Of a stretch of DNA of 64,000 bases, positions 27,955-32,060 are shown one piece after another. This DNA comes from Chitinophagaceae bacterium (lineage in GTDB: Bacteria > Bacteroidota > Bacteroidia > Chitinophagales > Chitinophagaceae): positions 1 to 64,000 of the forward strand of contig JAHBTL010000024.1 of NCBI GenBank assembly GCA_019638615.1, read 5' to 3'. Under the pieces are notes generated by a model, which saw nothing but the letters and a program-made list of their open reading frames with translations, had not been told where the DNA came from and searched no databases. Positions within the stretch are counted from its first letter, which is position 1. Each line of letters begins with the position of its first letter. The position numbers were made by a program, and so were the translations under genes.

Positions 27955-28080
27955 GGGTGGAAGGTGTAGGGCATAAGGATGAAGATGAAAGAGACCGTTT
28001 GATAAGTTGGTAGCATGTAACCCGCGACATGCAACTTGAAACCTGTAACTTGTGACCGATACACATATTTGCTTACTATT
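27955..28080. repeat. W word-repeat tract between argC and the passenger gene
   Basis: Words such as gggtggaaggtgtagggcat, then gcatgtaacccgcgacatgc and aacttgaaacctgtaacttg. The same vocabulary recurs at 12694-12770, 33141-33412, 34717-34820, 39475-39610 and 60545-60702. Confidence 0.7.
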
Positions 28081-28092
28081 AAAAACACCGGC

Positions 28093-28446
28093 ATGCGCGA
28101 TTGCAAAAAACGTGAAGTTTGGAGTAAATCCCATCAACTTTATTTGTACATAAAAAAAGAGGTTGTAGTGAAATTTCCGAAAGAAGAGAAATACGAATTG
28201 GCTTCGCAATTGCAAAGAGCGGCATTGTCGGTTCCTTTAAATATAACAGAAGGTTGCGGCAAGCATACAGACAAAGATTTTACTCATTTTCTTGATAACG
28301 CATTAGGGTCATTAAATGAAACTGATTACTGCTGTTTTGCAGCATCTGAACTAAATTATATACATAGAGAGGAGTACTGTGTAGTAAATAAATTAATAAA
28401 TGAAACAAGAGCAATGTTGATCGCTTTTATAAAATTTTTACGATGA
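28093..28446 (+). CDS. Four-helix bundle protein (23S rRNA IVS type)
   Basis: A 117-residue helical protein beginning MRDCKKREVWSKSHQLYLYI. It belongs to the four-helix bundle family often called S23 or intervening-sequence protein: FPKEEKYELASQLQRAALSVP, then NITEGCGKHTDKDFTHFLDNA and GSLNETDYC are typical. The function is unknown; members occur in 23S rRNA intervening sequences and scattered in Bacteroidota genomes. Here it lies between argC and argD, flanked on both sides by W repeats, so it looks like an inserted passenger with no arginine role. The in-frame upstream extension to 28036 is translated repeat sequence and is rejected. Confidence 0.88.
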   Translation: MRDCKKREVWSKSHQLYLYIKKEVVVKFPKEEKYELASQLQRAALSVPLNITEGCGKHTDKDFTHFLDNALGSLNETDYCCFAASELNYIHREEYCVVNKLINETRAMLIAFIKFLR

Positions 28447-29667: not shown

Positions 29668-29758
29668 AAGGTATAAGGTATGAGGCGTAAGGTAAAAGGC
29701 CTTCCACCCTACACCCTATACCTTCCACCCTTTACCTTTCACCCTACACCTTTTAAAC
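29665..29758 (+). repeat. Self-complementary W tract between argD and the transcarbamylase
   Basis: The left half (aaaaggtataaggtatgagg, then cgtaaggtaaaagg) and right half (ccttccaccctttacc and tttcaccctacacctttt) are largely complementary and could form a long imperfect hairpin. Read through, it adds an artefactual N-terminal extension to the next gene. Confidence 0.7.
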
Positions 29759-29766
29759 CAACTACT

Positions 29767-30735
29767 TTGAAACAGTTTATTTCTGCAAATGACGTGAACG
29801 ATATCAATGCTTTTGTAAAAAAGGCGTTGGATTACAAAGCCAATCCGCTTAAGGATAAAGCACTCGGCGCCAATAAACGCATTGGATTGTTATTCCTGAA
29901 CCCCAGCATGCGAACCCGCTTGAGCACACAAATAGCAGCACAGAACCTGGGCATAGAACCCATCGTATTCAACGTGGGCAGCGAAGGCTGGGCTTTGGAG
30001 TTTGAAGAAGAAGCCATCATGAGCGGCAGTAAAGTGGAGCACGTAAAAGACGCGGCGCCCATCATGGGAAAATATTTTGATATACTCTGCATACGCACCT
30101 TCCCCTCTTTGCAAAACCGCGAAGATGATTACAGCGAGCTGTACATAAAGCAGTTTATCAAATATTCAGGTATACCGGTGGTTAGCCTGGAAAGCGCTAC
30201 CCGCCATCCATTGCAAAGCTTTACGGATATTATCACTATTACCGAAGTTTTACAAAACAATAAACCAAAAACCAAAAACCAAAAACCAAAAATCGCTCTC
30301 ACCTGGGCGCCCCATGTAAAAGCGTTGCCGCAGTGTGTAGCCAACAGCTTTGCCGAATGGATCAACGCGTGGGGGCAGGCGGATTTTACCATTACGCACC
30401 CCGAAGATTATGAGCTGGATGAACAGTTTACAAAAGGAGCAGCCATCACCCATAACCAGGAAGAAGCATTGAAAGATGCAGACTTTGTATACGTGAAAAA
30501 CTGGAGCACTTACAACGACTATGGAAAGATTTATTGCAACGATCCTGAGTGGATGCTTACCAATGAAAAGCTGAAGCTGACCAATAATGCTAAAGTAATG
30601 CACTGCTTACCGGTAAGAAGAAATGTGGAATTGAGCGATGAAATACTGGACGGTCCGAACAGCATTATTACCCGGCAGGCTTCCAATAGAGTTTGGGCCG
30701 CACAAACCATTTTATCTGAAATTCTCAGCTCCTAA
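29767..30735 (+). CDS. argF': N-succinyl/acetyl-ornithine carbamoyltransferase
   Basis: A 322-residue transcarbamylase, close in layout to the Bacteroides fragilis N-succinylornithine enzyme. The carbamoyl-phosphate loop is FLNPSMRTRLSTQ (residues 43-55); SATRHPLQSF (EATRHPLQSF in the relative) and MHCLPVRRNVEL are the other active-site motifs. At the position that discriminates acetyl from succinyl substrates, Val90 stands in SGSKVEH, where the acetyl enzyme has Glu and the B. fragilis enzyme Pro; this favours succinylornithine. The ATG at 29680 adds 29 residues encoded by repeat DNA, so the TTG at 29767 (reads KQFISANDVND) is chosen. The segment NNKPKTKNQKPKIA is an in-frame repeat insertion. 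The stop codon lies in a palindromic repeat. Confidence 0.9.
   Translation: MKQFISANDVNDINAFVKKALDYKANPLKDKALGANKRIGLLFLNPSMRTRLSTQIAAQNLGIEPIVFNVGSEGWALEFEEEAIMSGSKVEHVKDAAPIMGKYFDILCIRTFPSLQNREDDYSELYIKQFIKYSGIPVVSLESATRHPLQSFTDIITITEVLQNNKPKTKNQKPKIALTWAPHVKALPQCVANSFAEWINAWGQADFTITHPEDYELDEQFTKGAAITHNQEEALKDADFVYVKNWSTYNDYGKIYCNDPEWMLTNEKLKLTNNAKVMHCLPVRRNVELSDEILDGPNSIITRQASNRVWAAQTILSEILSS
30254..30295 (+). repeat. Repeat tract inside the transcarbamylase coding sequence
   Basis: About four units of accaaaa occur in tandem within the coding frame and encode NKPKTKNQKPK. The same aaccaaaaacc vocabulary occurs in the W tracts of the gaps. Relatives lack a Lys/Pro/Asn-rich insert here. 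Confidence 0.7.
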
Positions 30736-30747
30736 CCCCTGAAGGGG
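30731..30747 (+). repeat. Palindromic repeat, left copy
   Basis: cctaacccctgaagggg, with a cccct/agggg-type palindrome. Its taa is the stop codon of the transcarbamylase. An inverted 17-bp exact match lies at 31345-31361 inside the argB coding sequence. Confidence 0.85.
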
Positions 30748-30794: not shown

Positions 30795-32060
30795 ATGAAT
30801 GCACCTTTTGCAAATAAGCAATTTTATTCGCCACTTGCTGATGGAAATGAAAAACAAAATATGTTTTATGGTGCGAGCAGCCTCATATTTGAAAGAGCCA
30901 AAGAGTTAAGAAACAGGATGACGCCTGCGGAAGAATTGCTTTGGAAACACATTCACATCAATGAATGGAAAGTAAAATTCAGAAGGCAGCATCCTATTGC
31001 TAACTATATTGTAGATTTTTATTGTCATTTAGTTAAACTTGTCATAGAATTAGATGGCGGGATACATGAAGATGAGCAGGTAAAAACGAAGGATAAGATC
31101 AGGGAGGATCATTTAAAAAGTTTAGGATTACACGTAATAAGATTTAAGAACGAATATATAATCCAAAATTTAGGAACCACATTGGCAACTATTTCAAAAG
31201 CTATTGAAACCATTAAGAGTAATCAGGCTAAGGCAAACGAAAAGCCTTCTCTTTTTGTAGTAAAGGTCGGTGGCAATATCATTGATGATGAAGCCAAATT
31301 ATCAGCTTTTCTTCAATCTTTTGCCCAACTCGCTGCTACCAATCCCCCTTCAGGGGTTAGGGGCAGGGGTCTTGTATTAGTACATGGCGGAGGGAAGTTG
31401 GCCACGCGCCTTGCGGAGAAAATGGGCGTGGAACAGCAGATGGTGGATGGCAGGAGAATTACAGATGCTGAGACATTGAAAATTGTAACAATGGTATACG
31501 CCGGCCATATCAATAAAAATATAGTGGCACAATTACAGGCAAACGGCTGCAACGCTATAGGGCTAAGCGGTGCGGACGGAAATACTATACTGGCACACAA
31601 GCGTATCAGTAAAAACAACATTGATTATGGTTTTGCCGGCGATATTGACGCGGTAAATGCAACCCTGCTTACACAATTGCTGGAACAGGGTATGACAGTA
31701 GTGCTGGCTCCCATTACACACAACGGAAAAGGACAACTGCTGAACACGAATGCCGATACCATTGCCCAGGAAACCGCCAAAGCACTGTCTAAGCACTATG
31801 CTGTATCATTGATCTATTCATTTGAAAAAAGCGGCGTATTGCTTGACGCGAATGACGACACTACTGTAATCCCCGAAATTAACCCGGCTTCATACGAGCA
31901 ACTGAAAAAGGAACAGAAGATCTTTGCAGGTATGATCCCCAAGCTCGACAATGCGTTTGCCGCGCTGAACAGCGGCGTAAAAAAAGTAATCATCGGGAAA
32001 GCCGAAGCATTGAGATCATTGCTGGATGGCAGGTCGGGAACAACTATAATCAATGAGTAA
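30795..32060 (+). CDS. argB: DUF559 nuclease-like domain fused in frame to N-acylglutamate kinase
   Basis: A 421-residue fusion. Residues 33-137 are a complete DUF559 domain (Vsr-like endonuclease fold): RNRMTPAEELLWKHI, KFRRQHPIANYIVDFYC, LVIELDGGIHEDEQ and LGLHVIRFKNE, with the Asp of VDF and the ExD of ELD intact. Residues from about 153 form the amino-acid kinase ArgB: VVKVGGN, LVHGGGKLATRLA, LSGADGNTI and IPKLDNA. No start codon lies between the two parts, so one polypeptide is expected. The stretch TNPPSGVRGRG (182-192) is an insertion encoded by a palindromic repeat just before the conserved GGGK. The gene overlaps the next one by eight bases. The kinase phosphorylates N-acylglutamate. 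The DUF559 part has no known arginine role. Confidence 0.88.
   Translation: MNAPFANKQFYSPLADGNEKQNMFYGASSLIFERAKELRNRMTPAEELLWKHIHINEWKVKFRRQHPIANYIVDFYCHLVKLVIELDGGIHEDEQVKTKDKIREDHLKSLGLHVIRFKNEYIIQNLGTTLATISKAIETIKSNQAKANEKPSLFVVKVGGNIIDDEAKLSAFLQSFAQLAATNPPSGVRGRGLVLVHGGGKLATRLAEKMGVEQQMVDGRRITDAETLKIVTMVYAGHINKNIVAQLQANGCNAIGLSGADGNTILAHKRISKNNIDYGFAGDIDAVNATLLTQLLEQGMTVVLAPITHNGKGQLLNTNADTIAQETAKALSKHYAVSLIYSFEKSGVLLDANDDTTVIPEINPASYEQLKKEQKIFAGMIPKLDNAFAALNSGVKKVIIGKAEALRSLLDGRSGTTIINE
31345..31363 (+). repeat. Palindromic repeat, right copy, inside argB
   Basis: ccccttcaggggttagggg. Its first 17 bases are the exact reverse complement of 30731-30747. It is translated in frame as part of the kinase (PSGVRG). 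Confidence 0.85.

Follow-up and report, generated by a model that had tools for sequence, protein, structure and literature searches.

DUF559 nuclease domains in frame within ArgB and other conserved enzymes: a putative homing-endonuclease-like cassette with palindromic ends

Introduction

Mobile nucleases usually leave the genes of their hosts intact, residing in introns, in inteins or between genes. As described in the available portions of PMC2988022 and PMC6083498, intronless homing, exemplified by mobE of phage T4, involves free-standing homing endonucleases encoded between conserved genes. The locus reported here resembles that arrangement, as far as those portions portray it, in that a nuclease gene lies at a gene junction, overlaps the upstream stop and is optionally present. 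It departs from it in that the DUF559 frame runs into the downstream enzyme or sits within a host protein, in that palindromes lie near the ends, and in that homing is putative. A profile of 18 DUF559 domains matched the chain 3r3p ('Mobile intron protein', E 1.3e-5), which we take to be I-Bth0305I, and is thereby related in sequence to a known homing endonuclease; unlike I-Bth0305I, the DUF559 cassettes that we checked have no intron or intein. The EDxHD family of homing endonucleases, in which I-Bth0305I is placed, is described in the available part of PMC3943268. Like inteins, DUF559 is carried in frame within conserved proteins. Unlike inteins, it is accompanied by no splicing domain among the Pfam matches of six hosts scanned (the ArgB fusion described below and five others), and its insert at site A of leucyl-tRNA synthetase (LeuRS) occupies what is, in genes lacking the cassette, a short variable turn before VYTTRPDT.

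The palindromes recall two further systems. Rickettsia palindromic elements, according to the available text of PMC10969869, are palindromic repeats that unrelated genes carry as translated, in-frame sequence. Palindrome-like peptides similarly occur in frame in our data, in three loops of ArgB in various genera and next to DUF559 elsewhere; the Rickettsia elements, however, are about 150 bp long and lack a nuclease gene, and here palindromes also flank DUF559. In REPtrons, as the available text of PMC3733652 presents them, short REP palindromes surround a RAYT transposase gene. Short palindromes surround the gene of a DNA enzyme here as well, but DUF559 belongs to another enzyme class and many copies lie inside coding frames. 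Among the open-licence papers searched, 14 name DUF559, and the titles and abstracts listed yielded no description of DUF559 cassettes of this kind. Below, the window denotes the whole stretch of 64,000 nucleotides that was analysed, and G and L numbers denote genomes and loci used for comparison.

Results

An original prediction, made by reading the window, held that a DUF559 domain is fused in frame to ArgB. This was confirmed by Pfam and NCBIfam matches along a single open frame of 421 codons with a predicted mass of 46.2 kDa. Features of the locus are as follows.

29680..30735, + strand: argF-type carbamoyltransferase, ending at the left junction of the cassette
30728..30747, + strand: left inverted repeat, hairpin CCCCTGAAGGGG, with the argF TAA stop (30733-30735) inside
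30795..32060, + strand: fused DUF559-argB frame of 421 codons, with an alternative start possible at codon 23 (MFYGA, 30861)
30891..31205, + strand: DUF559 nuclease domain, residues 33-137, with D76, E87, D89 and H93 present
31182..31184, + strand: in-frame TTG, codon 130, from which a separate ArgB (about 31 kDa) might be initiated
31206..31250, + strand: linker, residues 138-152, without ATG, GTG or TTG
31251..32060, + strand: ArgB (N-acylglutamate kinase), the only copy in the genome, its own start codon missing
31345..31364, + strand: right inverted palindrome copy, in frame within argB; a candidate cassette end or a solo copy

Pfam assigned residues 33-137 to DUF559 (PF04480; 106.5 bits against a curated cut-off of 20.6) and residues 153-401 to AA_kinase (138.2 bits), and the NCBIfam argB model TIGR00761 scored 196.8 bits against its cut-off of 151.3. 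Together with the score above the curated cut-off, the residue pattern shared by the family places the domain in DUF559, and its acidic residues are intact, as had been claimed. The fused frame was also rightly taken as the sole source of N-acylglutamate kinase, as no other ArgB match occurs in the 7.18-Mb genome (87 contigs). The domain had further been called Vsr-like, which is loose: the Pfam Vsr model was absent from matches at E ≤ 0.001 in the window protein and five other hosts, and the nearest solved chains were 3hrl ('Endonuclease-Like Protein', 6.7e-33 with the 18-domain profile) and 3r3p. Relatives have MKENMFYGA at the place of the second possible start.

The operon runs argC, a 23S-rRNA-IVP-type gene, argD, argF, DUF559-argB and a peptidase M20 gene, followed by what we recognized as, and presume to be, argH. 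The 23S-rRNA-IVP-type (four-helix) gene lies at 28036-28446, between argC and argD. ArgF itself holds translated short direct repeats (29700-29755 and 30248-30294), by eye one in an N-terminal extension and the other an in-frame AACCAAAAACC array that has an altered form in genus-mates.

Comparison within the genus revealed the same junction without the cassette, as the original prediction had proposed to look for. In 8 of 12 genus genomes, all cassette-free, the argF stop lies -8 to 13 bp from the argB ATG; the remaining four (the window genome, G005, G001 and G011) carry a cassette or its remnant there. The domain is complete in the window genome, reduced in G005 to a 57-residue remnant (88% identical) and broken into two fragments in G001, while G011 retains a DUF559 tail that was missed by tblastn and seen by eye. 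All three decayed remnants also continue in frame into ArgB. The ends are best displayed by G011, with CCCCCATCCCCTAAAGGGG at the argF end and an inverted copy before argB. The argB match of the genus-mate G004 (L015) contains one in-frame TAG.

Across the family, ArgB was matched in 191 of 244 genomes. Among the matches listed, all eight argB-linked DUF559 domains, from eight genera, lie in frame before ArgB, with argF just upstream in every case. Eight ArgB frames among those listed reached at least 340 residues, of which seven were DUF559 fusions and one (G109, 344 residues) was without DUF559; the eighth fusion (G239, L096) is truncated by a contig end. No DUF559 match was found at eight comparison argB loci (L166-L173), drawn from genus-mates of six fused genomes other than that of the window and including none of G048. 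By eye, the left palindrome contains or abuts the argF stop in the window, L091, L096 and L126. ArgB keeps its ATG behind a palindrome-coded peptide in L091, L099 and L111; as to linker start codons, L097 has GTG, L126 has TTG, and the window, L096 and L102 have none. The linker is palindrome-coded in several relatives (e.g., SPPLGDGG). G088 argB retains a palindrome-coded leader, and the three ArgB loops hold palindrome-like peptides without DUF559 in several genera.

The arrangement at argB is one of many. Of 150 DUF559 matches from the 244 family genomes, which were the best by score, so that family totals may be higher, 89 by hand count lay in frames of at least 250 residues, and the 87 frames concerned yielded 90 inserted domains. 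These were distributed over hosts as follows.

LeuRS: 24 of 90 domains at site A, 10 at site B
IcmF-like mutase: 10, plus 1 at another position
ArgB: 8
MetH: 8, plus 2 close to its start
AroC: 7
CinA: 4
MetRS: 4
Adenine deaminase: 3
Lhr-type helicase: 2
Single cases: 7

HsdR is also among the hosts with an in-frame DUF559. Names for LeuRS, AroC, MetH, CinA, adenine deaminase and HsdR derive from NCBIfam or Pfam matches of one or two members each, and those of the remaining hosts from recognition. For comparison, 35 standalone domains (34 loci) were sampled from 61 standalone matches listed. The window genome carries two DUF559 domains, the second in frame in the middle of LeuRS. Three LeuRS genes (L050, L052 and L055) carry two cassettes, at two different loops, and L216 LeuRS has only a palindrome-coded peptide at site A. 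Class-wide, DUF559 was present in 102 of 198 genomes, and 13 loci picked there for long frames include, by recognition, MetH (3), LeuRS (2) and HsdR (1).

These hosts bear on how the window protein is made. The claim that no start codon lies in frame between the two domains holds for the linker; codon 130, however, is a TTG just within the end of the DUF559 match. ArgB could thus be a separate product begun at this or another weak start, with no stable 46-kDa fusion. Besides the TTG at 31182 itself, such a reading gains from L102 and L096, with an ATG and a TTG, respectively, inside the DUF559 part, and from G005, which has ATG at the place of the window's TTG and whose DUF559 is truncated, so that its ArgB presumably starts near the codon-130 place. 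It is nonetheless weakened by LeuRS, AroC, CinA and other hosts, where the cassette interrupts one protein and read-through is therefore needed, and we regard it as improbable, if the most serious of the competing readings. DUF559-ArgB of the window is likely made as one fused polypeptide, as predicted from its frame.

The left and right palindromes of the window match at 19 of 20 bases. Only two hairpins of DUF559-type polarity occur in its 64 kb, at 30736-30747 and 31345-31356, on either side of DUF559. These emerged with arms of five bases, together with one hairpin of opposite polarity elsewhere; with arms of six, none of either polarity was found. The palindromes are accordingly not, in the window, merely a common repeat. 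The right copy encodes part of NPPSGVRGRG, an ArgB loop where some relatives have palindrome-like peptides. Its position inside argB is shared by the window, G005 and L097; a palindrome lies at the DUF559-ArgB joint in L010, L091, L099, L102 and L111, and at both positions in L096 and L126.

Beyond argB, flanks of the domain matched in inverted orientation (score of at least 14) for 51 of 84 domains, versus 58 of 400 mismatched pairs and none of 400 base shuffles. Across loci selected for DUF559, argB or LeuRS, 1.03 Mb in all, pyrimidine-purine hairpins numbered 218 and those of opposite polarity 2. Hairpins concentrate close to DUF559: of the 90 inserted copies, 40 have one on each side within 200 bp and 60 have one on at least a single side, the corresponding counts for opposite polarity being 0 and 2. 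The strict scan placed no hairpin within that distance of the other 30. A looser scan found both sides occupied in 42 of 90, against 6 of 90 for a reversed control. Standalone genes had hairpins on both sides in 10 of 35 cases and on at least one side in 19. Many inserted copies, though not all, thus end in inverted GC-rich palindromes. Tandem palindrome-like peptides were seen in L048 and L243, as NDIPNTSPKERG units in a LeuRS and as HPQGEVVENTT units before DUF559 elsewhere.

Genome-wide, CCCCTNNAGGGG occurred 1243 times in 117 genomes, versus 119 times for the reversed pattern. Of 50 genomes with a strong DUF559 match, 26 had at least 10 copies, as did 4 of the 67 that lack one (Fisher odds 17, p 1.5e-8, which is optimistic because genomes are related and cassettes bring their own palindromes), ten genomes with only weak matches (E above 1e-15) being classed as without. 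Three of the four palindrome-rich exceptions (G075, G088 and G095) are such weak-match genomes, and in G075 the reversed control exceeds the CCCCTNNAGGGG count. The window genome has 9 CCCCTNNAGGGG sites (reversed control, 3), of which 7 are off the cassette: 4 in one intergenic repeat, 1 otherwise intergenic and, by eye, 2 coding-like. In two other genomes solo palindromes were mostly intergenic; 5 of 25 lay deep within frames of 200 codons or more. Four intergenic copies of a repeat of about 70 bp (L227, L229, L230 and L231) were noted in the genome of the window, their arms resembling TATAAGGTTTGC...GCAAACCTTATA on either side of a CCCC/GGGG palindrome.

The palindromes might instead owe their movement to a different enzyme (a Y1 transposase of the REP type) or to recombination, the DUF559 gene lying between two of them as cargo. 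To judge from the available text of PMC3733652, RAYT genes surrounded by REPs form an established system; Y1 transposases were present in 89 of the 117 genomes, their number correlates with that of palindromes (rho 0.31), and G057 and G095 have 23 and 39 palindromes, respectively, with Y1 and no strong DUF559 match. With DUF559 held fixed, however, the Y1 correlation drops to 0.12, whereas that of DUF559 stays at 0.37. G023, G052 and G083, furthermore, hold 40-86 palindromes and DUF559 with no Y1 match, and the invariant nuclease residues described below are unexplained if the domain is mere cargo. Transport by such an enzyme is therefore rather unlikely, and a role of DUF559 itself is preferred.

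The DUF559 tree (125 domains, 113 columns) was poorly resolved, with 58 of 122 inner branches open. The eight argB copies form one group (SH-aLRT 95). Seventy-six of the 90 inserted copies group without any standalone gene (support 96); the other 14, argB included, are placed elsewhere, mostly with standalone genes. Site labels cluster imperfectly (29 changes versus 82.4 when shuffled). LeuRS A and B copies are not single clades (p-AU 0.021 and 0.031, modest values tested after the tree was seen), and the aroC copy L073 pairs with the LeuRS copy L093 (support 94).

At argB itself each data set rejects the topology of the other by AU, with p-AU 0.00017 for the ArgB data and 0.029 for the DUF559 data; by KH/SH the latter do not (0.055). 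These eight-row trees have mostly low supports, and ArgB of L096, cut by the contig end, is on a long branch. Host and domain identities at argB are uncorrelated (Mantel rho -0.28). At metH_C and icmF they correlate (rho 0.65 and 0.71), so that descent there looks largely vertical, and at LeuRS and aroC they do so weakly (0.18-0.37). Scattered presence with a phylogeny at odds with the host, as in homing endonucleases, is thus found at argB and is not general; vertical descent and transfer are mixed across sites.

The family ancestor could have carried DUF559 at argB already, with many losses since. Such old inheritance would account for the single group of argB copies and accords with the host-domain correlation at metH_C and icmF. 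The tree conflict at argB opposes it, as does L096: compared with the other seven, its ArgB shows 50-56% identity and its DUF559 63-72%, a gap that may reflect fast evolution of that ArgB. We consider this history doubtful, and transfer into argB remains the favoured one.

In the 90 inserted copies E48, W52, R66, Q67, D76, E87, H93, D102 and R105 are invariant, and D89 is conserved in 99%. Ka/Ks was 0.05-0.15 in eight of nine inserted pairs at least 76% identical, none of them argB pairs and four of the eight with Ks > 1; the ninth was saturated. Four standalone pairs gave 0.04-0.09. The conserved residues and low Ka/Ks of inserted copies would also suit a domesticated fusion, in which DUF559 is kept as useful to ArgB or the cell (regulation, repair or defence), and loss of the ArgB start codon commits the lineage to it. 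Nevertheless, at least eight fusions compare with 191 family genomes in which ArgB was matched, the cassette has decayed in three of the four genus genomes that bear it, host genes are functionally unrelated, and PADLOC returned only partial matches (best E 9e-8), so a known defence gene is not favoured. Domestication is accordingly quite improbable, and a selfish element is preferred.

A sequencing or assembly artefact is virtually excluded, including the frameshift near 31210-31250 that had been named as a possible refutation, since all eight argB-linked domains read into ArgB, the same fused frame recurring in genomes of seven other genera and three genus-mates carrying decayed remnants. 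An intein or intron was rejected, no splicing domain being present in the hosts scanned and no group I or II intron RNA being matched by Rfam at gathering scores in 7 sources. Cargo of phages or plasmids is not favoured: 2 of 50,697 phage records and 40 of 72,556 plasmid records matched, all below 60% identity.

Discussion

Collectively, these data argue that the DUF559 gene is probably a homing-endonuclease-like selfish cassette, translated and unspliced, with GC-rich palindromes near its ends. It would act like a free-standing homing endonuclease bearing inverted copies of a short palindrome near its ends. The nuclease is envisaged to cut cassette-free alleles or palindrome sites, repair then copying the cassette in, as in intronless homing. 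In coding regions only in-frame copies in tolerant loops would survive, because others break the host gene. At argB the cassette may first have settled between two genes with the argB ATG kept, as in L091, L099 and L111. Once that ATG was gone, as in the window, ArgB would need the frame of the cassette or a start within it. Absence of the argB start codon would thus make the fusion obligatory in the window, and loss of the cassette would have to be precise, favouring slow decay of the kind seen in genus-mates. Cleavage, movement and a stable fusion protein are, throughout, what the sequence comparisons lead us to expect.

The original prediction had viewed the domain as a mobile passenger captured by the operon. 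Inverted palindromic ends, empty junctions, remnants, presence in scattered genera and tree conflict fit that proposal. Its picture of a singular fusion did not hold, as in-frame cassettes sit in many other genes.

More tentatively, and with somewhat less than even confidence, we suggest that these cassettes constitute a distinct selfish element of Bacteroidia, a palindrome-ended DUF559 unit that homes into coding genes and persists in essential enzymes as a translated domain that is not spliced out; solo palindromes would be the traces it leaves or the sites where it lands. In many genomes DUF559 nucleases appear to be carried as extra domains of working enzymes such as LeuRS, chorismate synthase, methionine synthase and ArgB. 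If the proposal is right, it describes a recurrent path by which new domains enter conserved proteins, explains many odd DUF559 fusions in annotation and supplies a likely role for a family so far named just DUF559. In the HsdR of a type I restriction system (L046, frame starting at 2670), GIY-YIG and DUF559 both occur in frame; a second nuclease family may behave likewise.
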